A stretch of DNA of 64,000 nucleotides, from positions 9,476,501 to 9,540,500 of the forward strand of contig JAPNXP010000001.1 of NCBI GenBank assembly GCA_028753945.1. Direction: 5' to 3'. How positions within the stretch are numbered: the first letter of the stretch is position 1; every line of letters starts with the position of its first letter. The stretch comes from Hexactinellida sp. DTS-2022 (Eukaryota > Porifera > Hexactinellida). Positions 14,900-58,265 of the stretch are shown in pieces. Position numbers and translations under genes: made by a program. Below the pieces are notes generated by a model. It had not been told where the DNA came from. It saw nothing but the letters and a program-made list of their open reading frames with translations, and made no database searches.

Positions 14900-16396
14900 T
14901 ATATCTAATCACAATTGTCGGTTAGATACTCTCTAAGTGGCGTCTCCTTACAGAGGAGACTCGATGTTATGAATTTATTAGCGCATAATATAAATCATAG
15001 GCATTACGTTATGTGGACGTCAAGTATACTGGGATAGGAAATATCAGGATTAATTAATCAGAGGACTGAACGTACCTGGAAGACTATGCGAAATAAGGAG
15101 CCAATATATTTTATTGAGTACAACAACTACATTCAATGAAGTCAAATTCTAATAGCTTACTGCCAAAGTTACTTTGTAAATAAAATAAAGATAACTATGG
15201 ATATATAAATAGAGTAAATTTCTAACCTTATTATCACAATTGTATTTGCTGTCATTATTTTATAATTAGTTTATTGTACGGAGAACTTACAATGCGCATA
15301 ATGAGAGTCAGGGACTCACAATGAGCTGTTAACTATGTATTAGTTGGCTTCTTAATGAAGAAACAAGATTTAAAGAAATCGACCATTAATTAATGAATTG
15401 AAGCTTTTCATCAACTAATTTCACAACCCAATCGCGAATTTTAACTATTCGCAATTAATCCATTAAAACACTTTATTAACATTATTTTAAATAGGATTTT
15501 GGTCTAATTCGGCCCATAAGGAATTTGACACTGTTTACATTTGCATCGGGCAATATCACATGGCATTACTTTTAATTCAAGTAACTTAGATAACTGAAAC
15601 TAACACCTAGTAAATTATACTTGCTATACTTTTGAAAAATGGGTACAAATACGTAATCTGGAAATTGCACAACTCACGATGATATAATTATAGTAACTCG
15701 AGTACAATACACATACGCTGGGATCATGAAATAATATATCTAATTAATAATTATGCAACTAATTAAGAACGACACATAGAGAAATACTACTGATCTCTTG
15801 ACCTCCAACAAAACTATCATAAATCCTAGCTACATATTCTCCTATATTATACGAAATGTACAAGAGCTGAGGATCTAACAACATTCGAAAACGAGTAGAC
15901 ACTGCATCAGATTAGCCCGGTGGGCGTAATATTATGCATCATATTATGCATCATATTATGCATCATATTACTTTTCAGAAACTATTCTTTGTAGTTAAAC
16001 TGCAGTGTAGACAGATTAGAGATTATATAATAATCACATCCTTTTGTAAAGATGAGGAATGTAGATAAGGTTAGAGCTAAACTCTACCGTCTCTAGTTTA
16101 GACGTTGGAAATATGTTCCGTCATCAAAAGTTGACACATTTATATGCCCATATATGATCAAAATCAATACGAGCAGTCTTAAAGACATATAGGAACGAAG
16201 TCAGGTATTTAATGTAGTTTGGAATTGTGATATTGATTCTAATGGTTTTGGTGTTTGAAATATTAACAGGTGTGAACAGGATTGAATTATTGACCCCAAG
16301 AGGTTTATGGCTCATAACTTTCGTAAATTAATTTTTTCTCGTCCTTTAGACTTTTTCAAATAAAGTCTCTATATCATCAAATTAAGTTTTAATATT
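14900..16396. other. Gene-free AT-rich stretch
   Basis: No supported gene, RNA or complete element. Three direct copies of a 14-bp unit (ATTATGCATCATAT phase) occur at about 15929-15971. Confidence 0.5.
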
Positions 16397-17135
16397 GACG
16401 AGCCCTTCGGTCTCGGTCGCTTTGCGACGGATCGGTGCTACGCACCTCAAGTTAACGGCCGCTATGCGGCCTTACTCCTCACCCTTGCTACCATGGAAAA
16501 TGGTAGTGGATGTTATATACAACCCTTTCTACCATTTTCCATAGTTTTAACTTGTTTACTTATAATACCCGTTGAAGGCTAACTTCTAGGTCCATTTTGA
16601 ATTTTCACTAATTTTTTTACCTATTTTGTGAAATCAACAACAACAAATATTCATATTATAAATTTGTAAATGCCAAATTCGTGTTCAGCATACTTGTTAA
16701 CCTATAATACCCGTTGAAAGCTAACTTCTAGGTTGAGTTTGAATTTCATTAATTTGTTTACCTATCTTGTGTCATTAACAACAACTAATGTTCATATTAT
16801 AAATTTATAAATGCGAAATTCGTGTTCAGCATACTTGTTAACCTACAATACCCGTTGAAAGCTAACTTCTAGGTTTATTTTGAATTTTCATTAATTTGTT
16901 TACCATTTTTGTGTAAACAACAACAACAAATATTCATATTATAAATTTATAAATGCGAAATTCGTGTTCAGCATACTTGTTTACCTATTATAACATTTGT
17001 TTACCCATTATAACATTTGGAACTTAATCTCTATCTCAATTATAAATGCGGTTTCTATCCCCCATCACTTTAATACAATCCGGACAACAAACAAACACAC
17101 AAACAAACAACAATCGAGATTTAATAATATAGATT
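16397..17135 (-). mobile_element. Hairpin-ended repeat element with three internal ~140-bp tandem units, copy 1
   Basis: Read on the minus strand, the element begins TCTCGATTGTTGTTTGTTTG (near 17122). It then carries three tandem units of roughly 140 bp, each with AGTATGCTGAACACGAATTT, TTGTTGTTGTTTACAC and CTAGAAGTTAGCTTTCAA. It ends in four consecutive hairpins: 16457-16471 (GGCCGC stem), 16434-16446 (GGTGC stem), 16416-16428 (GTCGC stem) and 16399-16415 (CGAG.CC stem). A second copy lies at 42437-43115 on the plus strand. No coding region and no recognised transposase, so this is a non-autonomous element of unknown class. Confidence 0.6.
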
Positions 17136-17756
17136 ATTAATGTATACCTGAGCCTCCGGAATCGGCGAATCTGGCTGAAATACTTAGGCCGCAGCACTAA
17201 ATTGATCATAACTCAGAAAATAATGGTCAGAAAGTTTCAAAACAAATGCTATTGTAACATATGATAGTCTGCAGTGTCTGGCTGCAAAATTAAAATTTTC
17301 ATTTTGAAAAACTATAAATAGCAAATTGTCTCAACTTGGTGCACTAGAGTTAATTAGACCCATTGCAATTAGAGTGTGTGAAACTATTCAATGGAATTGT
17401 AAGAAGTAAGAATTAGGTGTAATATTAGGCCTGTAAACAGCATGCATGTAAAGGCGAATAAAACGTTATATAACGGTGAATCAGATATAACGGGCTTATG
17501 TCTCTGAGATTATTGATATTTAGCTAATTGGTTTAATTTCAATTATTAAAATTATGAATGATCTAAAATGGGTTGTCCAACCTTTTTGGTTCGCGGGCCC
17601 ATTAAGGGATCCTTGGGCTACCTGAGGGCCGCACGACCTTAGACATGCCAAGGTAGCATGATGACTGACATTTATTTGGGTATGGCGTTTAACGCGGTCC
17701 GGAAGATCATATATGAGACACTTTAGGAAGATCATTACATATTATATTTGATTATA

Positions 17757-17890
17757 AAATCCAAAATTGCAGCCTGTGCCGACGCATGTTCCTTTGGTGG
17801 CACTATATTTTGTTGGTTGTTTATTGATAGTGCCTCCAAAGCAGACCAAAGGAACATGCTGTCGGCACAGGCTGCAATTTTTGATTTTTT
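17757..17890. mobile_element. Hairpin MITE (GCAGCCTGTGCCGAC family), copy 1
   Basis: Left arm AATTGCAGCCTGTGCCGAC, then GCATGTTCCTTTGG; right arm is the reverse complement with one extra base. The interior carries a second inverted pair, GGTGGCACTAT/ATAGTGCCTCC. The relative at 18858-18976 lies in the opposite orientation. Confidence 0.75.
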
Positions 17891-18231
17891 TCGCCCAGTC
17901 ATCAACGCCTCAAGGTGTCAAGAACCATTTGTTAATTGGTCCGAGTCACAAGGAACGGTAGATAAATTTGAAGATAAATTTGAAACTTGCGTATATTGAT
18001 TTAACTTATAAATTCCAGCTGGTTTCTATTTTACTATACAATGGATTAAATTAAATTAAATAATATATGGAATTTGTTGACTTTAAAATAAATAACTAAT
18101 AATATAATTTATTATCAACACATAATGAATGAATGGCATTAAACTCAAGATGGTTTATGATAGAAACAAACTTTGTAACATGTTTTAATTTTAATATGTT
18201 TTTTTTTAACATGTTTTTATTTTAACATGTT

Positions 18232-18745
18232 TTAATTTAAACATCCCTCACAAACCCGCTGGAGACTCGACACCAAGTAGGGACTGAATCTCGGCAAAAA
18301 GTCTAACGGGAATTCCTTCACGTCTGTGTCTACCGACTCTAGAGCCATACTGTTATCCGACTGGTCAGCAGTGTCAGTAATGAAGTCATACAGAGAGAGC
18401 TCACGTGGGGCTTCTACACCAGTAACATCGTGCACGGAAACACAGGTTACCTTATGGCTCAGTCCGTACACCTCCATGACCTGTTCGTACTGGTGCTGTA
18501 CAACCTCCTTGCTACATGGGCCCTCCTGTTGTGTGAAGGAGAGCAGCATCGAGTGCACTTGCCAGTCTACAATGCAGTGAGCTGTCATTCCTATGAGAGT
18601 TCGCATATCCTGACTGGGGTGGGTGAGAGACAAATTGATGCACACCGTGTGAGCTCTCTGGAGCCTCAGCTTTACGAAGCTCTGTATTGCGGAAGTTCTC
18701 ACTCTCCACAATGGAGAGAGGCAACCCGTCTCCTGCGATGAGCTG
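18232..18745 (-). pseudogene. hAT/ZBED-type transposase fragment, frameshifted
   Basis: On the minus strand, one frame gives LPLSIVESENFRN and another gives the downstream part with DMRTLIGMTAHCIVDWQVHS. These resemble the 'LPLSFVEn.gF' and 'TAHxID.DW' segments of hAT/ZBED transposases, where they are also separated by a short distance. The two pieces are in different frames, so at least one frameshift is present. The N-terminal zinc finger and the C-terminal dimerisation region are absent. The fragment sits between two inverted copies of a hairpin MITE (17757-17890 and 18858-18976). The family call rests on short motifs read by eye. Confidence 0.5.
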
Positions 18746-18857
18746 TATTAATGTGTCCGTGGGTTGTACTGGTAGTGGTTGATGTGGAATTGCTCTACAG
18801 CGGCTTTACTCGCTCTACCGACAGTACAACGAATTCCCGCTACCTGTCTCTGATGCA

Positions 18858-18976
18858 TAATTGCAGCCTGTGCCGACAGCATGTTCCTTTGGAGGCACTA
18901 TCAATAAACCACAATCAAAATATAGTACCACCAAAGGAACATGCGTCGGCACAGGCTGCAATTTTGGATTTTTTTT
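18858..18976. mobile_element. Hairpin MITE (GCAGCCTGTGCCGAC family), copy 2, inverted
   Basis: Arms ATTGCAGCCTGTGCCGACAG and the reverse complement before GGATTTTTTTT. Its reverse complement is nearly colinear with copy 1 at 17757-17890, so the two copies form an inverted pair around the transposase relic. Confidence 0.75.
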
Positions 18977-19155
18977 CTATATTATTATTTTTTCTCCATA
19001 GACGGTGTCCTGGCCAGAGCTTTATAGTTGATGTGATGACGGGCTGACAGGAGTGCACTAGAGGGATCCTAGTGTAGGTGGGTTGTGCTTAGTACCTGTG
19101 GTAGGAGAACGGCATGGCTCACTGGTAACTAGAACTGGTGTAGACCAGTTGTAGT

Positions 19156-19205
19156 GTGGTCGAGGGTTACCCTCCTGATGAGTCCTTGTGATAGGACGAA
19201 ACCAC
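19156..19205 (+). ncRNA. Hammerhead ribozyme, type III topology
   Basis: All conserved core elements are present in order. Stem III 5' strand GTGGT (19156-19160) is followed by the cleavage base C at 19161, so cleavage is expected between 19161 and 19162. Stem I is a closed hairpin GAGGG-TTA-CCCTC (19162-19174). The core CTGATGA is at 19175-19181. Stem II is GTCC-TTGTGATA-GGAC (19182-19197). GAAA is at 19198-19201, and the stem III 3' strand ACCAC at 19201-19205 pairs fully with GTGGT. These match the consensus of self-cleaving hammerhead RNAs (NUH site, CUGAUGA, GAAA). In eukaryotes such motifs are found in satellite RNAs, Penelope-like elements and retrozymes. Downstream, 19228-19270 can form a long imperfect hairpin (GGTG.. 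/ ..CACC). Self-cleavage activity is inferred, not shown. Confidence 0.88.
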
Positions 19206-19610
19206 TTCCACCACATGTCGTATCCCGGTGGGTGTGAGATACATTTACGGTGTCTCATGCTCACCACAGATGGTCTGAAACTTGGCATGTAGGTGCGATG
19301 GGACCGTCTAATTTGCACCTGGGGTTACGATTTTTGATTAACAAATTTTGGACACATTTTTAACATCTTTCAAAATTTGTCTGGTCCATAACTCCACAAA
19401 TGTTTTACTAAACCCCCAATTATTATTTCACCATTGGATTCATCTTCAAATTCTGCGTCTGATGGAAGAAGAATATTTTTAATAATGGGTTTAATTTCTG
19501 CCACAAATGGGGGTTGAAATTTCTTTGTTTACTCACACTTCAATTTGAATAAAACTGTTAAATCTAATTCCATTGTTTCAACTTGCGATAATTATATTGA
19601 GAGCATCCTT
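19206..19610 (+). mobile_element. Sequence downstream of the ribozyme, shared with an inverted copy near 24885-25005
   Basis: Phrases CACCTGGGGTTACG, TTTTTGATTAA, GGACACATTTTT and AAATCTAATTC.ATTGTTTCAACTTG recur in the same order on the minus strand at 24885-25005, with about 200 bp missing there. GGTGTCTCATG upstream of these phrases is also shared. The second copy lacks the ribozyme core. This suggests the ribozyme belongs to a dispersed, probably non-autonomous element; no long protein-coding frame is seen in it. Confidence 0.5.
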
Positions 19611-19616
19611 ATATGC

Positions 19617-19772
19617 AGACGGTCTATTTCTAGACGGTCTATAAAAGCCCATACAAATAAGCCAAAAATTTATAGACCGTCTATAAATTCTGTAGACCAA
19701 AAACCCTGCTGTCTATGTGTAATACTAATGTATATGTAAGAAAACCTGGTCTAGAAATAGACGGTCTACATA
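19617..19772. repeat. Hairpin-forming repeat built on AGACGGTCTA
   Basis: The motif AGACGGTCTAT(A/T) occurs four or more times in both orientations: direct copies at about 19617 and 19634, an inverted copy at about 19676, and another direct copy at about 19759. This gives a stem-loop of about 60 bp in its first half and suggests a small MITE. Confidence 0.5.
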
Positions 19773-20125
19773 TAAGTTATCTCTTATATTGATTCATTAC
19801 ACCGTAACTCCATATATCACAATTAGAAAAGCAATTATTTCACTATAATTCATACCTTCACACTTAAAAGGACCTGCTTTTATCCCTGATCCATAGATCA
19901 CAAATAGAAAAGCGTACGTTTTCAATATAATCCTTATCACACTTTGTAAGGCGATTATTTACTATAATCAATACAAGTAAATTAGAATGATTATTCTTTT
20001 CTCAGGTATCCACAATAGTCAATTAGAAAGCGATCCTTTTCACCTTTTTCCATTCCAAGAAGGCTGAATTCACCAATTTCTTCAGGCCGAATTCACTCAT
20101 AGGCCAAATTTGTTCTAGGCCGAAT

Positions 20126-20498
20126 CAGTGGCTTAACGTGGTAAAGTGCCGCTGGGGGCAGCAACAAAAAAAAAGCCGCCCCCACAGACAAAAATCACGT
20201 TCATCGCGTTGACGTTTGTAGCCAGCCCTGCTTAGCCGGTCGCGACCTTTTGAACGTTTAGAGTTCATATACAAATATGTTACTGAATTATTCAAAAAAT
20301 ATTACTGTATCGGGGAACAACTGCAATTGTTAAGAAAAAACCTGGAAAATCAACTTGAAATGGTTCAAAGAGATATTTATCAGCATGTAATTCGTGCAAT
20401 TGTGAGAGAAAAATGATAAACAAAATGTCAAAATGCCGCCCCCAAAGCGTGCCGCTGGGGGCTCGTGCCCCCTTCGCCCCTACCTAGTTAAGCTACTG
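20126..20498. mobile_element. 373-bp non-autonomous hAT element with perfect TSD
   Basis: Ends CAGTGGCTTAACGTGG and CCTAGTTAAGCTACTG, flanked by identical GGCCGAAT at 20118-20125 and 20499-20506. Subterminal repeats GTGCCGCTGGGGGC occur near both ends in the same orientation. The interior holds no intact transposase. Confidence 0.85.
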
Positions 20499-20777
20499 GG
20501 CCGAATCCCCCTGTATTCGTTTGACATTAAATTCTTCAAATACAGCTATCTTCTCCTGACATATCAAGCACAATAAGCCCGCGTTGTGTTCTAAAACGAA
20601 AAAGTCGAATGTCCATGAGGATTTGAAAACTCGACATTCACTATCAATTTTCATTTTCTTTCCATTTTAATTACGGGAGTGGACATATTTGTTTTTAAAT
20701 ATTTGAATATTGTTTGAGTTGGGTTTTACTGTATTTGGAATTTATATGAGTTATTCCAGTTGAGAGAACACCTTATG

Positions 20778-20858
20778 TGCCAGATAAATATTTGATCAAA
20801 ACCCAATAAAAAGGTTATACAAATATTTGATCAAAACCCAATAAAAAGGTTTTACAAG
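20778..20858. repeat. Two direct 38-bp repeats
   Basis: The unit containing AAATATTTGATCAAAACCC and AATAAAAAGGTT occurs twice back to back with one or two differences. Not associated with a gene. Confidence 0.8.
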
Positions 20859-21607
20859 GAGTTTATTAGTTATGTAAATAACACCATTGTTGAAAAAGGT
20901 TTCATTCAATTTAGTTTTGCAGAATTAAGTTTCTCTTTATTGGGTTCGCTCAAATAGGTTTCAATCAATAAGTATCACCCGAAACTGGGAAAGTTCCCTG
21001 ACATGTCGGCGAGCCGGATTGTGGCCCGCGGGCCGTAGGTTGGACAAGCCTGATCTAACACCAATTTCAATGTCAACTTAAATTTCTTAAATTATTTGTT
21101 ATAAATAGTAATTTTAAATAAACTTGACTACATTATTTTAATTAAATAGGTATTTGGTTGAAGCGGTTTAAACCTTGATAAATTGTCTGTTATTGAAACA
21201 AAATCGAGCTATTCTTATGGCGCAGCTGAAATTTATTGAGCTATTAATATGAGCATTGTAATTCCCCAAACAAATTACATTGTGTAGCTATTTATTTATT
21301 ATGAATTTATGAGTGATATTTTGAGAAAAGTAAGGCCGCGAAGCGGCCGTTAATTGTGTTGTGAGTGAGTGATGCGTCACGAAGCGACCGAGACCAAGGG
21401 CTCGTAAGATAAAAGACTTCTCAATGAGATTACTGTAAAGCTAAAAGAATGTTCAAGAGGTGATAAGTATAGTTTACAAATTTATAGATTCATCTTTTCT
21501 TAGTATGCAATTTCTAATATGCATAAAATCTTGAAAATTAGTTCTACATAATTCAGAGTAAGATATAATAATTTGGAGATAATTAAAATATATTTTTATT
21601 GATAATA

Positions 21608-24650: not shown

Positions 24651-25756
24651 ATTAATTTATAATTAATTTGGCTACCATTTTTGTATTCCGCATACTGGAT
24701 AACCCCGATAAACAAATTGGAAGCATCTCTATATGTTAAAATAAAATACAAACTAAATTTATCATAATTAAATGCGTCAGTATATTAATAATTGCAAGAT
24801 TTTGCAGTTGGAAATATACTCACATAATTTGTCGTTGTTATGGTTTATATTCTTAATTTTCAATTAGGAAATAGAAGCCTTCTCGATCTCACAAGTTGAA
24901 ACAATAGAATTAGATTTAAACAGGTGTAAAATGTGTCCAAAGAAATTTAATCAAAAATCGTTACTCCAGGTGAACATCTGTAATCCATGAGACACCTGTC
25001 CTGAAAAATTTAGTTCTTAGTTTACCCGATTGAGCAGAGAAACATATTAACCGGATCTAATAAGCGCAGTATACTGTAGTCATATATATTATATGATATT
25101 TATACCAAGGAATTATCCAAGAGCGCGAGATTTTTAGAAAATTTGGAATCCTCTCATATACCGTAACATTAATTTGTGAATTGTGTATTGAAAATTGGAT
25201 CAGACCAAGATTAGGAGCGTATTTACAAATGACTGTATAATACACTAATTTAGACCCATGACGATATACCATGTGCAAAACGCGGGTCCTTAATTATAGT
25301 GATGTAGGGTCGAGAATCGAAGAGCCTTAAAAAGCTTACCTCTATAAATAAGTGCCTGGAAAGAAAATCCTAGATGAACCACTGAACATATAGTAGGTAC
25401 AAACAAGTTAAGAACTACAGCATATTAGTATAGTTGCTAACTTGCTATATATATTGTTGCAAAGCAGAATAGATACCTTTTTTATCTAATAGAATAATTA
25501 TTAAACAGTGTAAATTCATGAAGTAACGTATACTAAATGGTCTGGAGTGAATACATTTAATTAGTTATTTAATTTAATTTTAATGCGCTCGTGTAGTGTA
25601 TCTATTATCTAACGCGCATGTGTAGTTGTGCTTTAATATATGGAAGCTAATGCAAGAGATATAAATAATGCGCCTGAAAGATCAAAGAGCAAATTATTAT
25701 TAACAAAGAGCACGAGGTTGTAAAATCGTCTCAAAAGTTAAATATTAAAAGAAAGT
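24651..25756. other. Gene-free stretch between the MATE and ABCC loci
   Basis: No supported gene. The part at 24885-25005 is the inverted relative of the ribozyme-associated repeat. The end near 25756 should hold the 3' UTR of the minus-strand ABCC gene. Confidence 0.5.
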
Positions 25757-28700
25757 TCAAATAACAAAAGCCTTCTCTGCTACATCTCTCAAGTGAGATT
25801 GGGTGTCAGGTTCTAACTGAGACACTAATTTACTGAGACTGCTATTCTCATCACGCAGCATCAAGTGCGGAACATCAGCAGCTACGATCCTCCCCTTATC
25901 GAGAACAACAATTCTATCCGAGTCAATTATTGTTTCAATCCTGTGTGCTATTGTAAGTACGGAGCAGTTTGAGAAGTGAGACCGTATTGCCTGCTGCACC
26001 AGAGCGTCTGTGTGCATGTCGACATTAGCAGTGGCTTCATCTATCAGGATTATCTTGTTGTTCCTGAGTATGGCTCTAGCCAGGCACAAGAGCTGGCGCT
26101 CTCCCGTGGAGAAGTTCAATCCGTCTTCCTCCACACGAGCCATCAGCTGGTCAGGGAGAGATTCCACCATTCTCTTCAGATGTGCCTTCTCCAGTGCACT
26201 CCACAGCTCAGCGGCACTGAACTCATCGAAAGGATCCAAGTTGTACCGGAGGGTGCCTGAGAACAGAAATGGGTCCTGTGGGATTACAGACAGTCTTTTT
26301 CGATGTTCATACAGATTCAAACTTGATATGTCACGACCTTCGATATAGATACTCCCGCTGCTGATAGGATTAATGCGGAGCAATGAGTTCAGGAGAGAAG
26401 TCTTACCAGCGCCAGTCCTACCAACAATACCTATCTTCTCACCAGAGGACACTAGTAGAGAGACATCCGAGAGGGAGTAAGGAAGATCCTCTGAGTATCT
26501 GAAATGTACATTCTTAAACTCAATAACACCGCTATCTCCACTACTCACGGAAGGATCTGGTTGGACATTTTTGATAGATACCAGTTCTTGTGGCAGTCTA
26601 CAGTAGTTGAGAATTCTATCTACAGATACCATTAACACCTCCACCTCTCCACTCTGTCTAATCATGTACTGGAAAGTAACAGCTAGAGAAAGGAGCAATG
26701 GGATAGAGAAGCCTACCAACTCATCTGTTAAGAAGATACAGCGGGTAAAGAACGAATAAAACACTCCAAACACAACTACAAGAGAAGTCATTAGATCAAG
26801 TCGAATACCAAACCACCTGTGACAGCAGGTATAGTAGTACCAGTTACAAGAGTGTCGGTCCTGCAACAGGTGTAGATCCTGTGTTACTCGCTTCTCAATG
26901 CCGAGAGCACGTATGGTGGAGAGACCTTGTAGCGTGAGAGAAATGTGGGAGTAGAGGGGACTGCGAGCAACACTTTCCAGCTGTTTCACCTGTGTAGACG
27001 TCCTAAGGTAGTAATACCTCAGAGCTAGCATAGATACGAGCAGGACGAAGAATGGGATTATCAAATAGTACTGCACCACACAGGTAGCAATAATAATGGT
27101 AAAGTTGAAGGAAAAATGTTGCCAGAAGTCATAGAATGCCATAGGCAGCTGCTCATCAAGAAATCCGATGTCTTTGGCGAACCGATTTAGAATCCTACCA
27201 CTGGGATTTGTATCAAAGAAGTGCATAGGAGTGTATATCAGTCTCCGTAGCATCCTATTGTGCAGTCTCCTGCCTGCCTGGAGCACAATATAGTAGAAGT
27301 TAAACCCACGGAGAAACAGAAATACAGATCCAGAGAACGTAATTACCGCTAACAACATAAGAGCCCCTGGACTGCAAAAGTTGTAATACTTGGGAGATAG
27401 AGATGTGCCATTGGTCATTCCAATTGAGTCATTGGTTACTAATTGCGAGCATTCAGCCATAGACTGCATCCACCAGTAAGCTAGGATTATGCCTCCATTT
27501 CCCAAGACGGTTAGGAGTAGCATAACAAGTGTAGCCATGAAACCTCCTGTCCAGAAGTAACGCAGGTAAGTAACTAGGCCGATAGCATTGGGACGATAGT
27601 CTTCTGAAGTCATTGCAGAGGATAGCGGCTGAACAGCTGTAGAGTCTTCGTTAGTTTCATCAAGGCTGGTTAGGAAAGAATCTTTCTCAAGTTTTGACCA
27701 GCTGACCGACTTTGTAACTCTGACTGATAAGTCTTTGGTTTCTGTAGTAACTTTCTTCTCCTTTTTCTTCTGGAGACTATGAAGAAATTTTTCAGAGAAC
27801 TCATCCTCTGCGACAATATTTTCAAATGTTCCACTGGAAACAATTGTACCTTCATTCATCATGACAATAAGATCAGATTGCGAAACGTAGTTGATCTGGT
27901 GAGTCACCATCAGGATCAGTTTTTGTTTGAGAAAGCCCCTCAAACAGTTCTCAAATATTTCTCTACCCACTCTCACGTCTACAGCACTGAGAGGATCGTC
28001 AAACAAATAAATATCAGCTTCATGGTAGACAGCCCGTGCTAGAGAAATTCTAGCTTTCTGTCCCCCACTCAACGTCACACCTCTCTCTCCTACCATCGTC
28101 ATGTCACCTTCTTCATAGCAGTCAATGTCCTCCTTCAGACTACAAGCCAGTACCACTTTCTGGTAGCGGGCTGGCTCCAGTGTCTTTCCGAATAGGATAT
28201 TATCTCTGATGGTGCCGGAGAATATCCATGGAACCTGAGCAGCGTATGAAAGGACTCCAGTGATGGATATACGACCAGATAGTCCAGGCAGCTCATTGGT
28301 TATACTCAAAAGAAGGCTGGACTTCCCAGCGCCGATAGGACCAGCAACAGCTACCAACTGAGGACGATCCAATCTTAGGCTGATACACTTCAGAACTAAA
28401 TTATCAAAATGTTCATTCTCGGTTCCTTTCCATGAAGCACAGAAATTAACAAACTCAACAGACGGATTTGAATCTTCAGATGAAGGCTTCTGAACTAAAC
28501 AGTTTTCTATGTTCTCAGGTAGCAGCAACACACGCTGTATTCTTCTCAGAGCAATAACACACTCCCTGAATCCAAATATAGCGTGGCCTAAGAATAACAC
28601 ATTTATTAAACGTAAAGCATTGAATATGAGAAATGCCAGAGCCAGATTGGGCGGAGAGATTCTGTGTCCCACGGCAATGCTGACTGAGAAAACTAAGAAT

Positions 28701-29674
28701 AAGGCAATGAATATACTCGTGCTGAATAGTGAATATGTTGTACTCTGTATTATTCCAGACAAACTGGCATAGAATACCTCATTTCTTCGAATCTTACTGA
28801 TGTACCTGACGAATGGTTCTTCCCAAACATAAAATTTAATCACATGCATTCCTCTGATAATCTGATCCATCAGTCGAATGCGCTTATCCGCCGTAGTTGA
28901 AAGTTTGTATCTGAAGTGTCCGAATAGGAATCCTAATACAATCTGTAATGGAGTGTGTAGCATAATGTAAACAATCCCTACTAGTCCTATCGGTCCTACG
29001 TATACCAGAATGATAATTGTGGATAATATTAAAACAATGGGTGCCAACCAGAACGCGTTACAATAGCGAACTCCAACATCAAACTTGAATACATCGTTAG
29101 AAGTGAGGTTTATAATGTGTCCTATGGTGACTTTGTGAAGTACGGACTGTTGTATGCGCAGTATCTTTTTGTATAACGCCACGACACATATGGCTCGCAT
29201 TTGGATGCCTAGGCAGTATACAAAGTAGAAAGCCAAGCTATGAATAATCGTCAAGCTGACTGTGATAATTGAAAGAGCAAACGCATACCCCAGGGATGGA
29301 CCAAGGCTGCTAACAGTCACATTGCTATTGTCTCCTGTACAGAGAGATGAGATATGATACACCAATATAGCTTGCACCAAAAATAATATCATTTCAATGA
29401 AGAAGAAAAGGCCTCCAATAATAGACAAAGAATACAGAGCTTTAGCAAGAGGGATTTTAATATCCGGCGTACCACTCTTCTTCAACTCACCCTGCCAATA
29501 CTTCTCAAATCTCTCATAGAGTTCCTTGGAGCATTGTTCCTTTGGACAGGGATGCAGATCACTCTGTGTTAAAGTATTTCCAAAACCTTTGTAAAAGAAT
29601 TTCTCTAGCCAGAAGAAGAAAGTTTGAGAAAATAAGTTTCCCCTGTAATCTATCTGTTTCGGCAAGATATTCAT
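25757..29674 (-). CDS. ABC transporter, ABCC/MRP4-type 'short' MRP, intronless
   Basis: A full ABC exporter of 1305 residues in one exon, starting at ATG 29674. There is no extra N-terminal TMD0, as in ABCC4-type MRPs, which export organic anions and cyclic nucleotides at the plasma membrane. Order: TMD1 about 80-370, NBD1 with Walker A GPIGAGKSSLL (about 445), signature LSGGQKARISLARA and Walker B IYLFDDPLSAVD, then a charged linker with a KKKEKK stretch, TMD2 about 700-1000, and NBD2 with Walker A GRTGAGKTSLL (about 1085), degenerate signature FSTGERQLLCLARA, Walker B KIILIDEATANVD and H-loop TIAHR. NBD1 has Asp after Walker B (DDP) where NBD2 has Glu (DEA), the usual ABCC asymmetry. Substrate cannot be read from sequence. 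The lack of introns in a 3.9-kb coding region is unusual for an animal MRP. Confidence 0.93.
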   Translation of the reverse strand: MNILPKQIDYRGNLFSQTFFFWLEKFFYKGFGNTLTQSDLHPCPKEQCSKELYERFEKYWQGELKKSGTPDIKIPLAKALYSLSIIGGLFFFIEMILFLVQAILVYHISSLCTGDNSNVTVSSLGPSLGYAFALSIITVSLTIIHSLAFYFVYCLGIQMRAICVVALYKKILRIQQSVLHKVTIGHIINLTSNDVFKFDVGVRYCNAFWLAPIVLILSTIIILVYVGPIGLVGIVYIMLHTPLQIVLGFLFGHFRYKLSTTADKRIRLMDQIIRGMHVIKFYVWEEPFVRYISKIRRNEVFYASLSGIIQSTTYSLFSTSIFIALFLVFSVSIAVGHRISPPNLALAFLIFNALRLINVLFLGHAIFGFRECVIALRRIQRVLLLPENIENCLVQKPSSEDSNPSVEFVNFCASWKGTENEHFDNLVLKCISLRLDRPQLVAVAGPIGAGKSSLLLSITNELPGLSGRISITGVLSYAAQVPWIFSGTIRDNILFGKTLEPARYQKVVLACSLKEDIDCYEEGDMTMVGERGVTLSGGQKARISLARAVYHEADIYLFDDPLSAVDVRVGREIFENCLRGFLKQKLILMVTHQINYVSQSDLIVMMNEGTIVSSGTFENIVAEDEFSEKFLHSLQKKKEKKVTTETKDLSVRVTKSVSWSKLEKDSFLTSLDETNEDSTAVQPLSSAMTSEDYRPNAIGLVTYLRYFWTGGFMATLVMLLLTVLGNGGIILAYWWMQSMAECSQLVTNDSIGMTNGTSLSPKYYNFCSPGALMLLAVITFSGSVFLFLRGFNFYYIVLQAGRRLHNRMLRRLIYTPMHFFDTNPSGRILNRFAKDIGFLDEQLPMAFYDFWQHFSFNFTIIIATCVVQYYLIIPFFVLLVSMLALRYYYLRTSTQVKQLESVARSPLYSHISLTLQGLSTIRALGIEKRVTQDLHLLQDRHSCNWYYYTCCHRWFGIRLDLMTSLVVVFGVFYSFFTRCIFLTDELVGFSIPLLLSLAVTFQYMIRQSGEVEVLMVSVDRILNYCRLPQELVSIKNVQPDPSVSSGDSGVIEFKNVHFRYSEDLPYSLSDVSLLVSSGEKIGIVGRTGAGKTSLLNSLLRINPISSGSIYIEGRDISSLNLYEHRKRLSVIPQDPFLFSGTLRYNLDPFDEFSAAELWSALEKAHLKRMVESLPDQLMARVEEDGLNFSTGERQLLCLARAILRNNKIILIDEATANVDMHTDALVQQAIRSHFSNCSVLTIAHRIETIIDSDRIVVLDKGRIVAADVPHLMLRDENSSLSKLVSQLEPDTQSHLRDVAEKAFVI

Positions 29675-30101
29675 TACATCAGAGCACGTATCTATCTCAC
29701 TAAAGTAAATAAATTTTGTAAAAGTTACCTACTACCGTACTACGTACAAAGGATAATTTCCAAAATGCGCCATCATCTTGTGAAGTCGCTTGTCCACATT
29801 TCGGCTATTTTCTTCACCAAACCGTAATTAATGATTATAGTTAGTTATTGTTCACTCCAGCAATGGTCTGTTAACAATGCATGAATTATTATTCAGTTTC
29901 CAAATAGGTACTATGAATCCTTGATTATCCGACCACGTTGGGACTAGTGAAACATGTTGGGATAATTTAAGGCTGAACAAACTTATGAGATGCCATTTTG
30001 GCCAGCCTGGTGATTTCATAAAATCGTAGTTCAGATATTCGAGGCTACTTTCTAGCTCTACAACACAACTTGTCATATCCGAAAATGCGTTAATACTAAA
30101 G

Positions 30102-38494: not shown

Positions 38495-41400
38495 CGAATT
38501 TCTTGTTGTGGGAATTGAATTTCTTGTGCATGAAATTGAATATCTTGTTCTTGAAATTGAATTTCTTGTTATTGAAATGTAATTTCTAGTCCTTGAAATT
38601 GAATTTCTTGTTGTTGAATTTGAATTTCTTGTTCTTGAATTGGATTTCTTGGTCTTGAATTGGATTTCTTGTTCCTGAATTGGATTTCTTGTGGTTGAAA
38701 TTGGATTTCTTGTTCCTGAATTGGATTTCTTGTGCTTGAAATTGGATTTCTTGTTCCTGAATTGGATTTCTTGTGCTTGAAATTGGATTTCTTGTTCCTG
38801 AATTGAATTTCTTCTTCTTTAAATTGGATTTCTTGTTCTTGAAATAGGATTTCTTGTGCTTTAAATTGGATTTCTTGTTCTGGAAACTGGATTTCTTGTG
38901 AAATGAATTTCCTGAAATTGAATTTCTTGTTAATTAAATTGGATTTCTTGTTCTTTAAATTGAATTTCTTAGTCTTGAATAGGATTTCTTGTTGTTGTTA
39001 ATCGGATTTCTTGTGTTTGAAATTCGATTTCTTGTTCCTGAATTGGATTTCTTGTTCCTGAATTGGATTTCTTGTTCTTGAATTGGATTTCTTCTTCTTT
39101 AAATTGGATTTTTTGTTCTTGAAATAGGATTTCTTGTGCTTTAAATTGGATTTCTTGTGCTTTAAATTGGATTTCTTGTGCTTTAAATTGGATTTCTTGT
39201 TCCTTAAATTGCATTTCTTGTTCTTGAATTCGATTTCTTGTGCTTGAAATCGGATTTCTTGTTCTTGAAATTGGATTTCTTGTTATTGAAATGTAATTTC
39301 TAGTCCTTGAAATTGAATTTCTTGTTGTTGAATTTGAATTTCTTGTTCTTGAATTGGATTTCTTGGTCTTGAATTGGATTTCTTGTTCCTGAATTGGATT
39401 TCTTGTGGTTGAAATTGGATTTCTTGTTCCTGAATTGGATTTCTTGTGCTTGAAATTGGATTTCTTGTTCCTGAATTGGATTTCTTGTGCTTGAAATTGG
39501 ATTTCTTGTTCCTGAATTGAATTTCTTCTTCTTTAAATTGGATTTCTTGTTCTTGAAATAGGATTTCTTGTGCTTTAAATTGGATTTCTTGTTCTGGAAA
39601 CTGGATTTCTTGTGAAATGAATTTCCTGAAATTGAATTTCTTGTTAATTAAATTGGATTTCTTGTTCTTTAAATTGAATTTCTTAGTCTTGAATAGGATT
39701 TCTTGTTGTTGTTAATCGGATTTCTTGTGTTTGAAATTCGATTTCTTGTTCCTGAATTGGATTTCTTGTTCCTGAATTGGATTTCTTGTTCTTGAATTGG
39801 ATTTCTTCTTCTTTAAATTGGATTTTTTGTTCTTGAAATAGGATTTCTTGTGCTTTAAATTGGATTTCTTGTGCTTTAAATTGGATTTCTTGTGCTTTAA
39901 ATTGGATTTCTTGTTCCTTAAATTGCATTTCTTGTTCTTGAATTCGATTTCTTGTGCTTGAAATCGGATTTCTTGTGCTTTAAATTGGATTTCTTGTTCC
40001 TGAATTGGATTTCTTGTTCTTGAATTCGATTTCTTGTGCTTGAAATCGGATTTCTTGTTCTTGAAATTGGATTTCTAGTTCCTGAATTGGATTTCTTGTG
40101 CTTGAAATTGGATTTCTTGTTCCTGAATTGGATTTCTTCTTCTTTAAATTGGATTTTTTGTTCTTGAAATAGGATTTCTTGTGCTTTAAATTGGATTTCT
40201 TGTGCTTTAAATTGGATTTCTTGTGCTTTAAATTGGATTTCTTGTTCCTTAAATTGCATTTCTTGTTCTTGAATTCGATTTCTTGTGCTTGAAATCGGAT
40301 TTCTTGTTCTTGAAATTGGATTTCTTGTTCCTGAATTGGATTTCTTGTGCTTGAAATTGGATTTCTTGTTCCTGAATTGGATTTCTTGTGCTTGAAATTG
40401 GATTTCTTGTTCCTGAATTGGATTTCTTCTTCTTGAATTGGATTTCTTCTTCTTTAAATTGGATTTCTTGTTCTTGAAATAGGATTTCTTGTGCTTTAAA
40501 TTGGATTTCTTGTTCTGGAAACTGGATTTCTTGTTCTTGAATTCGATTTCTTGTTCTGGAAACTGGATTTCTTGTTCTTTAAATTGGATTTCTTGTTCTT
40601 GAATTCGATTTCTTGTGCTTGAAATCGGATTTCTTGTTCTTGAAATTGGATTTCTAGTTCCTGAATTGGATTTCTTGTGCTTGAAATTGGATTTCTTGTT
40701 CCTGAATTGGATTTCTTCTTCTTTAAATTGGATTTTTTGTTCTTGAAATCGGATTTCTTGTGCTTTAAATTGGATTTCTTGTTCCTGAATTGGATTTCTT
40801 GTGCTTTAAATTGGATTTCTTGTTCCTGAATTGGATTTCTTGTTCTTGAATTGGATTTCTTCTTCTTTAAATTGGATTTCTTGTTCTTGAAATAGGATTT
40901 CTTGTGCTTTAAATTGGATTTCTTGTTCTGGAAACTGGATTTCTTGTTCTTGAATTGGATTTCTTGTTCTGGAAACTGGATTTCTTGTTCTTTAAATTGG
41001 ATTTCTTGTGGAATGAATTTCCTGAAATTGAATTTCTTGTTAATTAAATTGGATTTCTTGTTCTTTAAATTGAATTTCTTAGTCTTGAATAGGATTTCTT
41101 GTTGTTGTTAATCGGATTTCTTGTGTTTGAAATTCGATTTCTTGTTCTTGAATTGGATTTCTTGTTCCTGAATTGGATTTCTTGTCTTGAATTGAATTTC
41201 TTCTTCTTTAAATTGGATTTTTTGTTCTTGAAATAGGATTTCTTGTGCTTTAAATTGGATTTCTTGTGCTTTAAATTGGATTTCTTGTTCCTTAAATTGC
41301 ATTTCTTGTTCTTGAATCGGATTTCTTGTGTTTGAAATTGGATTTCTTGTTCTTGAATTGGATTTCTTGTGCTTGAAATTGGATTTCTTGTTCCTGAATT

Positions 41401-42178
41401 GGATTTCTTGTGCTTGAAATTGGATTTCTTGTTCCTGAATTGGATTTCTTGTTCTTGAATTGGATTTCTTCTTCTTTAAATTGGATTTCTTCTTCTTGAA
41501 ATAGGATTTCTTGTGCTTTAAATTGGATTTCTTGTGCTTTAAATTGGATTTCTTGTTCCTTAAATTGCATTTCTTGTTCTTGAATCGGATTTCTTGTGTT
41601 TGAAATTCGATTTCTTGTTCTTGAATTGGATTTCTTGTGCTTGAAATTGGATTTCTTGTTCCTGAATTCGATTTCTTGTTCTTGAATTGGATTTCTTGTG
41701 CTTGAAATTGGATCTCTTGTTCCTGAATTGGATTTCTTGTGCTTGAAATTGGATTTCTTGTTCCTGAATTGGATTTCTTGTTCTTGAATTGGATTTCTTG
41801 TTCTTGAAATTGAATTTTTTGTGCTTTAAAATGAATTTCTTGTTCTTGAATTGGATTTCTTGTTCTTGAATTGGATTTCTTGCTCTTGAATCGGATTTCT
41901 TGTTCTTGAATTGGATTTCTTGTTCTTGAAATTGAATTTTTTGTGCTTTAAAATGAATTTCTTGTTCTTGAATTGGATTTCTTGTTCTTGAATTGGATTT
42001 CTTGCTCTTGAATCGGATTTCTTGTTCTTGAATTGGATTTCTTGTTCTTTAAAATGAATTTCTTGGTCTTGAATTGAATTTCTTGTTTCTGAAATTGAAT
42101 TTCTTGTTGTTGAATAGGATTTCTTGTTCTTGAAATTGAATTTCTTGTGAAATGAACTTCATGAAATTGAATTTCTTG
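38495..42178. repeat. 3.7-kb minisatellite, ~21-bp unit (TTTCTTGTGCTTTAAATTGGA type)
   Basis: The array consists of roughly 170 degenerate units of 20-22 bp, with variants CTTGTTCTTGAATTGGATTT, CTTGTTCCTGAATTGGATTT, CTTGTGCTTGAAATTGGATT and CTTCTTCTTTAAATTGGATT. On the minus strand, 21-bp units read as the heptad QEIQFKA/QEIQFKE, giving several open frames up to 113 codons; these lack a start context and a non-repeat domain. Higher-order structure is present: 38969-39214 recurs without visible change at 39683-39928, a 714-bp period, and a third related block lies at 39918-40259. The array abuts the decayed transposon gene on its left. Confidence 0.9.
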
Positions 42179-42403: not shown

Positions 42404-43115
42404 AGTCGCGAAGCGACCGAGACCGAAGGGCTCGTATTATTAAATCTCGATTGTTGTGTGTGTGTGTGTTTATGTGTTTGTCCGGATTGTATTAAAGTGG
42501 TGGGGAAATAGAAACCGCGTTTATATATGAGATAGAGACTAAGTTTAAAATGTTATAATAGGTAAACAAGTAGCAGATTTCGAATTTCGCATTTATAAAT
42601 TTATAACATGAATATTTATTGTTGTTGTTTACACAAATAGTTAAACAAATTTATGAAAATTCAAAATTGACCTAGAAGTTAGCTTTCAAAGGGTATTATA
42701 AGTAAACAAGTATGCTGAACACGAATTTCGCATTTATAAATTTCTAATATGAATATTTGTTGTTGTTGTTTACACAAAATAAGTAAACAATTAATGAAAA
42801 TTCAAAATCAACCTAGAAGTTAGCTTTCAACGAGTATTATAGGTAAACAAGTATGCTGAACACGAATTTCGCGTTTATAAAATTATAATATGAATATTTG
42901 TTGTTGTTGTTTACACAAATAGGTAAACAATTAATGAAATTCAAAATCAAACCAGAAGTTAGCTTTCAACGGGTATTATAAGTATATAACTATGACAAAT
43001 ATTACTAACTATATAATCAATTGTTTAGTGAGGAGTAAGGCCGCGTAGCGGCCGTTAACTTGAGGTGCGTAGCACCGATCTGTCGCAAAGCGACCGAGAC
43101 TGAAGGGCTCAGATC
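42404..43115 (+). mobile_element. Hairpin-ended repeat element, copy 2, with a second hairpin tail in tandem
   Basis: 42405-42417 (GTCGC-GAA-GCGAC) and 42418-42434 (CGAG.CC-GAA-GG.CTCG) are the 3' hairpin tail of one element. After TATTATTAAA a second element starts TCTCGATTGTTGTGTG at about 42445. It carries three ~140-bp units (shared motifs as in 16397-17135) and ends in hairpins at 43039-43053 (GGCCGC-GTA-GCGGCC), 43064-43076 (GGTGC-GTA-GCACC) and 43082-43094 (GTCGC-AAA-GCGAC). Same order and spacing as copy 1, in the opposite orientation. Confidence 0.65.
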
Positions 43116-45115
43116 ATATAAAGACTTATGCAAATTGATATAATTGACAGGCTATTGAGTATTGACCCGATTAGTTGATTTTTTAATTTTTTAAAGCGAA
43201 TATTGTGTCAATTTAGTTATTACTTAGTTTTCATACAATTTTCTAAGTACTTATAGTTAAGAGATACCTTAAGTTGATAAATGAATAGAATTTTTGAAGT
43301 TTATAATCCTAATTCCAAAAGAATTCCTAAATACTGATACTGATTGATGGGTTAGACTCTGAGTTGTTTCAGCTTCATTTAATAAAAGAAATAGTGCCAC
43401 TCAAAATAATAGTTAAGTTGTATTTGATAGAAATGAAAGTTTTATAAATAAATATTGTATTTCAACACTATTAAAATCTTAAATAAATACTGTCGATGTT
43501 GATTCTGCATAATGAATTTTAAATAAATGACAATTTAGTATAAACTAAGTAAACACTTGTTTGGGATAAAAACTAGTAAATACTAAGTAAATACTTAGTT
43601 TTATTTAAGTAGGATAAATTTGAGAATACTTAATGAAAACTAAGTATACTATGTTATGTGAACTTATGTCGATTTTGTCAAATGTCGATTTTACAAAATC
43701 GACATTTTGGATGTGATTTTGTAAAATCGACTATTTGACAAAATCGCCATACTAACATATACACTAAGTAAATACTTAGTTTATACTAAGTTTTTACTTA
43801 GCTTAAGTTTAAGTAGTTTAGTGAATAAGGCCCCTGGTGACGAAGTATTGTTAAATGTAAAACGCAAAGGAAAACTGATCCTAAGTGGGAAGATGGTTAG
43901 TGTGAAAAAGAGATATTGGGCCCAGTAAATGTTAAGATCCTACATAGTGCAGTGATGGGAGAATAGATTGAGGTCACATAACAAAAGAGACTTATCTCAA
44001 GATAGGCAAATATATTTTCTTTCAGGAAAAATTACTTGAGAGAGGTAGTTTGCAAAAAGAGAAATTCACCATATTATGAGGGAAATAGAGTTCTACATCT
44101 TCAATTTAGAATTCGAATTATAAGTGTTACTGGACTAGTACACAAATTACGATATAATTAAGGAATAAATACGAAATTGAGAAATTGGTCTTCGAAGTGC
44201 AAATATACAGAAATTCTCCATCTCCTGACCAAAGTTGAAATCTATATCACCAATAGTCTAGTCAGGCTGCTCTATCTGCCGGCCGGCAGAAGCCCGACAA
44301 ATGATTTTAGAACTTATAGTATAATCTGTAAGATCCTACTATAGAGTTTAAATAGAAGAAACATACAAAAAAGCAGCTACAAATACAGATTGTACTATGT
44401 AGTATACATGACCTCGGTATTGATCTCAGCATGGCTAAGAAAAGAATAACAAAGTGTCGATTGAATTTACAATGTTCCAGATCCGTTTTGTATAAATACT
44501 GGGAAATCTAAATAGTTGCAAAATTATGTCTTACCAAACCGTTATCCAACTTAGAAGTGTTCTGAGGAAGAAGGTCAAAGAGGTCCAATGTAAGCTCCAA
44601 AATGAAAATACATAACTAGTCATTATATAATTACACTATTTAAGTAGATACAACTCAAATAATAATACAGCTCTCGAGCTGTGTTTAATTGATATACAAT
44701 TTGTAAATATTGTTTATACAATTAGTTGAGCAGAAATGTAAATACACAATTATATATAGACGAACCCTCCGGCCTCGCTATAGCTGTATGTATTAATAAT
44801 TAAACACAAATGCGGGTTTATTGCTTATCACCCCGGAAAGAGACAAACAACGATCGAGTTTTAACATTATAGTATGTTTTAGATAGAGAGGGGTTTCAGA
44901 ATACTTCCGCAAAATGGGGGCCAAGGAATGCTCCCAAAGGGTGGCCTACAAGCCAGGTGCCCTTTGGGGAACCAACCAGGTTCCGAAGAGGAGACCTGGA
45001 ATTAGTCTTGACGGAAATGAATAAATGTAAGTTGATTAAATATTATCCTATTTATATTCGAAACATCTTTATTCTTTAATGTTTATTAAAATAGCATACA
45101 ATTTAAATATTAATG
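43116..45115. other. Gene-free stretch with AT-rich palindromic repeats
   Basis: No supported gene. At 43667-43749 a long hairpin is formed by GTCGATTTTACAAAATCGAC-like arms. Around it (43545-43810) CTAAGTAAATACTTAG motifs recur. A GC palindrome CTGCCGGCCGGCAG lies near 44277. A hairpin-tail fragment (ACCCTCCGGCCTCG) is near 44765. Confidence 0.5.
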
Positions 45116-53756: not shown

Positions 53757-54311
53757 TACATTCAAGTAGAAGTTAATGCAAAGAACGAACGAAGTAACGA
53801 ACGAAGTTAGTTTACACTGTTCACTACTAATTCAAACAATAATCTACCCAGGTAATAAAATCATTAGGCAATAGTTGACTCTACTACCTACTATATATTA
53901 GATATTGTTTCGTCTAATTTAACCACTTATACCTTGTACACATTGAAAGTCAATCCAATATAGATTTATTGTTTCAAAGAGAAACCTAACTTGGTGCAGA
54001 GTATGTTAACTGATATGTAATCACTGATATGTAATCATAATTGCTCAAGTAAATTGATTAACAAAAGTAATGGAAAGGAATGTATAAATTATATTCAGAA
54101 TAACAATTTGAAATTTATATAAAACACATTTATTACATTATTATTGATTAATGATAAATTAAAAATATTTTAAATGTGAGTGTTGAATAGACAAAACTGA
54201 ACCAAATCATCATTCAATCAATCCAAAATAAATCCCGGATAAATTAGCAGCATGATTTGTGGAAACTAAATACGAATCTTGACTAGTAATAAAATAAATA
54301 CAAATTAAAAC
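53757..54311. other. Intergenic region between collagen and flightless-1
   Basis: Holds the collagen promoter side and the flightless-1 3' end (both genes on the minus strand, about 550 bp apart). Near the collagen start there is a direct repeat of AACGAACGAAGT (53784-53808). TTTATT at about 54128 could be the reverse complement of a poly(A) signal for flightless-1. No other gene seen. Confidence 0.4.
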
Positions 54312-57300: not shown

Positions 57301-58265
57301 TGAGTCATTTCACACAGGTTGTGAGGGAGGAAGGCGATGTAGTTTCCAGAGAGATCCAATGTTTGGAGCTGACTCCAAGCGTCTATGGAACTTGAAATGT
57401 CTTTCAGCTTACAATAGCTAAGGTTTAGCCGCCGTAGGTTCGTCAGCTTAAACAAATCAGCTGGGATTTTGGACAGATGGTTGTGAGATAGATCCAGGTC
57501 TCTCAGACAAACCAATTTATGCAAGTTATTAATATTAGTCTGCTGGCCTGCAGTTTGTTCTGACGAATCAAAGTAGCATCTCCCGGTGTCGGAGAGATTG
57601 AGATGCTGGAGTTTAGTCAGACGTTCAAAAGCTTTTCTAAACGCATAGAGATCCAATGGGTTGCTGGAGATATCCAGATGCTGCAGTCTGCTCAGTCGGA
57701 TGAACTGCACTGGTAGGGTGCGGAGTGAGTTGTGACTCAGGTCTAGGTGCTGCAGCCCAGTGCAGGCAGTGAATAGCTCTGGTGGCAGAAGCTCTATGCT
57801 GTTGTGACTGAGGTTTAGTATAATCAAGCTCTGTAGTATCCGAATTTGTTTTGGAATTGTAGTTAGTTTGTTGTGACTCAAGTCGAGAGTCTTTAACTCG
57901 GAACTGATGGACTGAAAGAAATGGTCTGTGAGTCCATCGTCTTCCAGTTTGTTGTGTCTAGCATTAATCTGGTTAAGATGAGGTAGATTTTCCTTGGCGA
58001 GGATGTCATTGTCCAGGAGAGATATGAGGTTGTTCCTGTCAAGAGAGATCTTCTCAAGAGTGCTAATTATTCCCAATTCGGAAGGGACGACATCAATTTT
58101 AGTAGCGGAGAGAGACAACCAACGGAGCCCTCTCATGTCCTGTAAGATTAGTGGGAAATCTTGAGATTGGAAGGAGTAATCTGAGAGATCGATTCCTTTC
58201 ACAAAATTAAGAATATTTCTCCGTTTCTTCTCCTCAAACTCGTCATACTCCTCAGAGCTATTCAT
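54312..58265 (-). CDS. FLII: Flightless-1 homologue (LRR plus six gelsolin-like repeats), intronless
   Basis: Flightless-1 is a gelsolin-superfamily actin regulator that also acts as a nuclear receptor coactivator; human FLII has 1269 residues, this one 1317, starting at ATG 58265. The N-terminal 410 residues hold about 15 leucine-rich repeats (LKTLDLSHNKL, LQHLDLSHNSL, LRDLDLSHNHL, LRRLNLSYCKL, LVTLELDDN). A basic/Ser-rich linker runs from about 420 to 520. Gelsolin-like repeats follow: G1 about 530-640 (FSTGDCYLILYTF, DIFYWVGSESS), G2 from about 710, G3 about 815-880 (VFILDSHSQVFVWQG), G4 about 955-1040 (CYAFVADYYEE, VYFWQGKDA), G5 about 1095-1170 (ITYVWLGSKA) and G6 about 1205-1290 (DVMILDTGEEVFIWIG), ending EPWIFRRCFHGWDPWKE. 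The LRR-gelsolin fusion is diagnostic. No intron interrupts 3.95 kb of coding sequence. Confidence 0.96.
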   Translation of the reverse strand: MNSSEEYDEFEEKKRRNILNFVKGIDLSDYSFQSQDFPLILQDMRGLRWLSLSATKIDVVPSELGIISTLEKISLDRNNLISLLDNDILAKENLPHLNQINARHNKLEDDGLTDHFFQSISSELKTLDLSHNKLTTIPKQIRILQSLIILNLSHNSIELLPPELFTACTGLQHLDLSHNSLRTLPVQFIRLSRLQHLDISSNPLDLYAFRKAFERLTKLQHLNLSDTGRCYFDSSEQTAGQQTNINNLHKLVCLRDLDLSHNHLSKIPADLFKLTNLRRLNLSYCKLKDISSSIDAWSQLQTLDLSGNYIAFLPHNLCEMTQLKRLFLSDNRLQMDGIPKNIGNMINLESFVAARNQLVSVPASMCTCLQLKKLVLTSNRLITLPEGFRTMTQLVTLELDDNPQLKLPPKQKEEVLDHFKQATSQEFKKGVVTIDPKVNKLKGAARHRRRKLLQLQGILSQDCDNSSLAGKATASRQPSSHPHNSAEAEKVLRGLADIADKHKDSLDDLSDSGSSVTSLFGQKLSWEEKLLKKPDLDYALIFDSSQEIGNSTGISMWIIDQLAPCMIPSSCHGTFSTGDCYLILYTFNNENMRIDWDIFYWVGSESSLDKKALVAIHAVHLRNMLGAKCRTKRIEMGEETNEFLRIFPDDIRYLEGGQASALRPVHIEIPETRLYRILTPAVNIPPIMEPIPLSYLSLDLSVPHLFEAPEINIIFIWAAPSLGRGTVSKARLVAEDMKWIEYRGKVQVLTVYAGNEPRRFWEALGGYPPSDYEIPNNSILNEVKPPKSKLFSVRLEKDSLELPQLHFSEYRPSKTLLDGGQVFILDSHSQVFVWQGRKAKGILRNAGIFLAQEIKEMFPRPDHVNSRLISQGLEPVSFRSQFHNWGHLDKRPNYQSSQSPNDVTLNVSTLSMNSTIVNPSSLSATTAAARAPSLKLDISALFQQRNMKMDIDIYHLFKDSCRNLIRIECFILRGSICEPLPQEAKGHFYSMECYAFVADYYEEQPEGSSDDPEEYRIVYFWQGKDAKESVWVKFQFNDFFVEIEEKGIRQRLSWEDFIGPDFELVRYKQQGEEFKFLAHFGQKVIVHKGLYGPSLEPTSPCLYQIRAKYSKLCRRIVQVNPVSPTMLNSEFCCIMRIPFPGTSGSGITYVWLGSKATQEEELHAEQMGRVMSPPSYALQVIREGKEPDNFFWAAMGGRPGPDFELERSADYLRHARLFKCTNERGFFRVSELLLDFHQGDLNNDDVMILDTGEEVFIWIGNSASDVEKKLAARSCELYLKHLEQMDTEPKRKLRVTKPGREPWIFRRCFHGWDPWKE

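Follow-up and report, generated by a model that had tools for sequence, protein, structure and literature searches.

A type III hammerhead ribozyme amid transposon debris in a hexactinellid sponge genome, probably carried by a decayed mobile element

The stretch analysed here (the window, 64 kb of the Hexactinellida sp. DTS-2022 assembly) carries at positions 19154-19207 of its plus strand what its sequence and family match identify as a true type III hammerhead ribozyme with all of its parts. The ribozyme is predicted to be active, and it most likely lies in a decayed non-autonomous mobile element surrounded by transposon debris, a reading to which we give a probability of about 0.55. This reading is favoured because the site is found amid transposon remains and because a dispersed repeat forms its 3' flank. 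It agrees with the general picture of genomic self-cleaving RNAs, which are mostly tied to mobile elements, retrotransposons among them (PMC7761336, PMC7229834). The motif and its stems, its occurrence as a single copy in the window, the GC-rich folded unit around it and a downstream repeat in two copies are direct observations. The parts of the ribozyme are as follows:

19154-19207, plus strand: type III hammerhead ribozyme, whole Rfam match (RF00008)
19156-19160, plus strand: 5' arm of stem III at the open end of the motif, 5 bp with 19201-19205
19159-19161, plus strand: GUC cleavage triplet (from the sequence), with the cut predicted after C19161 by hammerhead rules
19162-19174, plus strand: stem I hairpin of 5 bp (19162-19166 with 19170-19174), loop UUA (sequence, fold)
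19175-19181, plus strand: CUGAUGA core box (sequence)
19182-19197, plus strand: stem II hairpin of 5 bp (19182-19186 with 19193-19197), loop UGUGAU of 6 nt (sequence, fold)
19198-19205, plus strand: GAAA core box (19198-19201) and, at 19201-19205, the 3' arm of stem III (sequence, fold)

A covariance-model search of the window gave a match to RF00008 (Hammerhead_3) with a score of 58.3 bits, above the gathering score of 48.5. All 54 of the 54 model positions are aligned without insertion or deletion at 19154-19207 on the plus strand, and the E-value is 2.2e-10 for a scan of 64 kb, both strands, against 4227 Rfam families. One pair of the match, in the outer part of stem III and counted second from its open end, is non-standard. 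The CUGANGA and GAAA boxes, the NUH site and the three helices are all present. The site had been placed at 19156-19205 of the plus strand, with an invariant core (NUH site, CTGATGA and GAAA); both the location and the core are borne out by the sequence, and the location by the Rfam match as well. Stems I and II are closed and stem III is open in the RF00008 match and in the RNAfold structure, which is the type III topology, as had been proposed. The closed stem I and the open stem III, each of 5 bp, were also described correctly, while stem II has 5 bp and not 4 bp. The minimum free energy (MFE) structure of the motif is exactly the three-stem hammerhead, with an energy only modestly better than that of shuffled sequences (z -1.7; 9 of 200 shuffles are as good). 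The sizes of loops I and II fit the RF00008 consensus. No second hammerhead was found on either strand of the whole 64-kb window in the Rfam scan at E up to 10, and besides the hammerhead no Rfam family, including tRNA, scores above its gathering score in 18970-19420.

The bare core, CTGATGA followed by GAAA, is expected by chance, with a mean of 1.6 occurrences per shuffled window and at least one in 81 of 100 shuffles, and for this reason the weight of the evidence lies in the stems and not in the core. A strict script scan for the core together with the NUH site and three stems picks out a single site, the present one, in the real window, while 200 dinucleotide shuffles give no match. A chance assembly of the motif, for which the frequency of the bare core would speak, is thus hardly credible in view of the 0/200 count and of an E-value that takes window and library together; the original prediction had likewise judged it very unlikely.

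By established hammerhead chemistry, plus-strand RNA should cut itself after C19161. The transcribed RNA would fold into the three stems, with loops I and II held together, and self-cutting would give an upstream product with a 2',3'-cyclic phosphate and a downstream product with a 5'-hydroxyl. Efficient cleavage as monomers has been described for type III hammerheads, their speed coming from loop-loop contacts (PMC6155905, excerpt). For this locus we infer the loop contact, the cleavage, the transcription, the movement and the retroelement nature. Partition-function models were computed for ten transcript lengths around the ribozyme. Stems I and II both have a probability of at least 0.9 in six of the ten, and stem III has a probability of at least 0.5 in six of the ten. 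The latter value ranges from 0.96 in the bare motif to 0.06 in a transcript ending at 19207, and the three longest transcripts modelled give 0.23-0.25. As the probability of stem III varies with transcript length, the extent of flanking RNA may govern cutting. In MFE folds the ribozyme is broken in 18985-19325 and kept in 18973-19340 and 19000-19330.

The class is known, and it is the combination of host and loop design that is unusual. Type III hammerheads are described mostly from plants, and from the circular RNAs that infect them, whereas animal genomes typically contain type I, according to PMC7229834, PMC7761336 and PMC4918200 (for the circular RNAs, PMC7761336); the remark in the original prediction that animal hammerheads are mostly of type I agrees with the first two of these sources. 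The ribozyme shares with RF00008 its topology and loop sizes, with no indel over the 54 positions, and differs in the letters of its stems and of part of loop II, which depart from the consensus at 19154-19207, and in its animal host. Type III hammerheads of another design have been described in HDV-like RNAs and in termite and fly genomes (PMC7936874, excerpt). Like the present case these include type III forms in animal DNA, and the termite motifs are isolated, without recognisable frames nearby; they possess, however, a long helix I, an extra hairpin and a loop-loop pseudoknot, while stem I has here 5 bp and a 3-nt loop. Hammerhead Penelope-like elements carry a minimal type I ribozyme in the pseudo-LTRs of a reverse transcriptase (RT) element, in contrast with the type III form and full stems found here. 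The open-licence literature, as far as the excerpts go, yielded no animal genome for which a compact type III hammerhead had been reported. Perreault et al. reported many animal hammerheads (PMC3088659), the excerpt giving no breakdown by type, and compact type III cases may sit in data sets of this kind. A compact animal type III ribozyme offers a test case for shared mobile ancestors of the plant and animal families, exchange between hosts or repeated origin.

The ribozyme lies within a GC-rich stretch that is predicted to be strongly structured and contains further hairpins:

18999-19312, plus strand: GC-rich structured unit with inverted TAGACGGT at its edges (GC content and folding; boundaries set by inference)
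19077-19123, plus strand: hairpin 5' of the ribozyme, outer stem of 13 bp (z -2.4 for 19077-19126)
19127-19153, plus strand: short hairpin directly 5' of the ribozyme (z -4.0)
19227-19265, plus strand: hairpin of 16 bp, four of them G-U, on the 3' side of the ribozyme (fold)

The GC content is 0.51 in 18999-19312, compared with 0.14 in 18970-18998 and 0.30 in 19320-19600. Five copies of the word TAGACGGT are present in the 64 kb, always within 18999-19765: an inverted pair lies at the edges of the unit, one copy at each, and the other three are inside a 169-bp element at 19608-19776. The folding z-score of the unit is -4.5 on the plus strand and -2.5 on the minus strand, and that of 19100-19270 is -4.4. 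Strong folding is, however, not unusual in this window. Among 189 window tiles (two of the 189 overlap the unit), 13 have a z-score as low as -4.5, in a comparison that used 30 shuffles per tile against 200 for the unit and left out the tandem array at 38-42 kb; 69% of the bases of the unit are paired, and 6 of the 189 tiles have as many. The strands differ in folding energy, with -20.5 kcal/mol on the plus and -7.3 on the minus strand for 19226-19264, and the difference over the unit is equalled by 3 of 189 tiles. A strand-neutral count over the unit gives 6 G-U against 3 A-C, an imbalance reached by 16 of 187 other tiles. The 16-bp hairpin with its G-U pairs is striking and the energy difference between strands is rare, but selection at the RNA level is not claimed for the unit, because the count is only 6 to 3 and because 13 of 189 tiles fold as well.

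The small size and strong folding of the unit invite comparison with retrozymes. In plant LTR retrozymes a type III ribozyme is likewise found in non-coding, strongly folded DNA; their RNAs, however, have about 600-1000 nt compared with about 314 nt for the unit, and they carry two ribozymes in direct long repeats, whereas here there is one, with no second copy and no LTR seen at the locus (PMC4918200, excerpt). Further marks of plant LTR retrozymes are a primer binding site for tRNA-Met and a polypurine tract, and those of animal non-LTR retrozymes are circular RNA and numerous copies in the genome. Animal non-LTR retrozymes are closer in their small unit of a few hundred bp and in their host, but consist of type I ribozymes in tandem repeats of 150-450 bp, where the present one is of type III and single, and their reported GC content is below 45-50% compared with 51% here (PMC7229834, excerpt). 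The carrier would be a mobile element, similar to retrozymes in being small and strongly folded, that inserted into DNA rich in transposons, and the ribozyme most likely trimmed its transcript. A more far-reaching proposal, that an animal lineage has a type III retrozyme-like family of its own, with the compact RF00008 design in place of the type I or pseudoknotted forms described in animals, and with small self-cleaved, possibly circular RNAs, is put forward only tentatively and we hold it to be rather doubtful.

The 3' flank of the unit is made of a repeat whose blocks recur, inverted, elsewhere in the window:

19316-19373, plus strand: first block of the dispersed repeat, with an inverted copy at 24972-24915 (BLAST, 79% over 58 nt, E 1e-7)
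19555-19588, plus strand: second block, with an inverted copy at 24923-24889 directly after the copy of the first (BLAST)
24889-24996, minus strand: second, shorter copy of the downstream repeat, without the ribozyme and 19374-19554

In the copy at 24972-24889, 5.3 kb away, the two blocks are continuous and inverted. The similarity may extend back to 19249 (from 24972 to 24996 in the other copy) through an 11-nt match, which is equalled by 9 of 2000 shuffles and by 7 of 1454 window segments. The second copy is without a ribozyme, and so the tie between ribozyme and repeat consists of one locus and the 11-nt extension. In the mobile-element reading, the downstream part of the carrier would be common to both copies; the other copy stops short of the ribozyme, as a 5'-truncated retrocopy would, and two copies are no proof of this. 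By eye, the first block contains in both copies a short frame ending in PGVTIFD-stop with silent differences, so that it may be the final exon of a gene that was duplicated; next to the ribozyme the frame has a stop at 19309-19311.

A single insertion of another sort, in which a viroid-like or other self-cleaving circular RNA was reverse-transcribed into DNA, would account for a unit of about 314 nt that is strongly folded, exceeds its surroundings in GC content and carries a ribozyme with the loop design of RF00008. We consider it unlikely: the flank is a repeat present elsewhere in the window, and no convincing target duplication was found around the unit, the longest direct repeats being AT-rich 9- and 10-mers judged, with no control, to be at chance level. 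Some viroids and viroid-like satellites carry one hammerhead per strand (PMC9608096, excerpt), whereas none is found here on the minus strand at E up to 10.

On a larger scale, the locus is enclosed by what appear to be the remains of a DNA transposon, with further repeats nested in it:

17567-21050, strand not assigned: hAT-like transposon frame enclosing the locus (flanking TGATCTAA and inverted ends)
17559-17566 and 21051-21058, plus strand: TGATCTAA, 8-bp candidate target duplication (word count)
19608-19776, strand not assigned: 169-bp inverted-repeat element with 28-bp ends and the AGACGGTCTA motif (repeat search)

The pair of TGATCTAA words is a candidate target duplication, which would place the locus within a hAT-like insertion some 3.5 kb long. 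The word has two plus-strand occurrences in the 64 kb, both flanking the frame; they begin at 17559 and 21051 and have the 8-bp length of a hAT target duplication. Its reverse complement occurs twice elsewhere in the window (4684 and 26791). The inverted ends are GGGTTGTCCAACC, 3 nt after the left TGATCTAA, and GGCTTGTCCAACC, which adjoins the right one; taken alone, their alignment scores 24, and the best of 500 shuffles scores 25. Two copies of a self-palindromic repeat element lie just left of the unit, at 17756-17888 and 18853-18975, and flank a GC-rich stretch with a 171-aa frame on the minus strand and a 132-aa frame on the plus strand. The former (18232-18747) looks like a possible hAT transposase remnant; it has no Pfam or PDB match, and the latter has no Pfam match. 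The original prediction had called the setting intergenic, which stands but is incomplete, as the ribozyme lies inside the hAT-like frame with its nested repeats and beside the dispersed repeat.

The evidence counted against the mobile-element reading consists of the single ribozyme, of the absence of a tandem ribozyme array or direct long repeat across the unit in repeat searches of the 64-kb window, of the absence of a tRNA gene from the same 64 kb, and of the absence of a domain-bearing frame. For the last point, no protein domain exceeds the Pfam cut-off in nine reading frames around the locus, and the frames over or near the unit that lack one include an 88-aa frame on the minus strand and six others; no RT domain was found in the reading frames tried, which cover part of the window. 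In a search of ten proteins, three weak Pfam matches fell below the cut-offs and were disregarded, and a Hakai zinc finger is a real match, but far from the ribozyme.

Another explanation is a silent fossil, namely a once active mobile-element ribozyme that still looks intact and has lost its transcription. The decayed surroundings, the lack of any frame with a domain above the Pfam cut-off among those tried and the shorter second repeat copy without a ribozyme are in line with it, while the intact state of all core positions and all three stems argues the other way, and we regard this explanation as having a low probability. The same intact core amid decayed transposons could instead reflect domestication by a host gene, in whose 5' region or intron the ribozyme would set the transcript level. 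A candidate is the MATE transporter gene (about 21587, same strand), the MatE reading frames of which begin 2.4 kb downstream of the ribozyme, and intronic hammerheads conserved in amniotes have been described (PMC6155905, excerpt). The end of the hAT-like frame (21050), the inverted-repeat element and other repeats stand, however, between ribozyme and MATE frame, and domestication seems improbable.

Viral contigs (IMG/VR) and a phage collection were searched for related sequences. The stem II pattern was found in no viral contig; its one match, in a Paenibacillus contig, was rejected (not type III by the script, and no hammerhead at the gathering score). A looser hammerhead pattern returned at least 120 stretches of viral contigs. 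Among the 121 loci from the matches listed, 24 of 131 matches, in 23 loci, are of type III by the script, and among these same matches 2 of the 15 type III loci scanned with Rfam (of the 23) reach the RF00008 gathering score. As only 2 of 15 do so, the loop design of the window ribozyme is shared by a minority of the sampled type III loci. The two loci, L006 (53.6 bits) and L098 (52.6 bits), share with it the RF00008 match; they have a short loop I (ATA and TTTA, respectively) and a loop II that begins with TGAAA. No flank common to them and to the window unit was found. By eye, L006 has portal- and terminase-like frames and looks like a phage. The compact loop design occurs also in at least one apparent phage and is not proof of a plant or viroid origin.

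A possible contact between loops I and II was examined by their association in viral contigs: TWA in loop I was found in the one case with the same loop II class (1/1, a single case) compared with 14 of 121 others. A combined TWA/TGNNAT pattern matched 15 times, in 11 contigs, and in no match was a closed stem I convincing; a locus with a weak type III call (L122) was set aside. Patterns taken from the window unit and its flanks were found either in no contig or as three exact 16-mer matches; a search of the phage collection with the window unit gave no match at E up to 1. Two viral contigs, L128 (9603-11434) and L131 (minus strand), each contain four hammerhead core motifs on one strand, and the six of these motifs that were classified by script are all of type I.

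Elsewhere in the window, Pfam searches identify collagen, calcium-binding EGF and LRR-plus-gelsolin domains, which back the original assignment of this DNA to an animal. Long intronless frames encode an ABC transporter (25757-29728), a collagen (51069-53831) and an LRR-gelsolin protein (54312-58322); very long intronless reading frames are unusual for an animal genome. A 3.6-kb array at 38498-42148 is built of a 20-41 bp unit, with about 89 copies of 41 bp; its minus strand has long open stretches, which by eye would specify a Lys-, Asn- and Arg-rich repeat protein. Two segments of about 750 bp at 16383-17129 and 42435-43128 form an inverted pair (83% alike), and each contains a 140-142 bp unit about three times in tandem. 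Finally, 60385-61419 contains four arrays of 15-bp units, of which the outer arrays are built of a common unit that keeps its orientation and the inner arrays of another unit that is inverted between them; weak matches to miRNA models in this interval fall on the 15-bp repeats.
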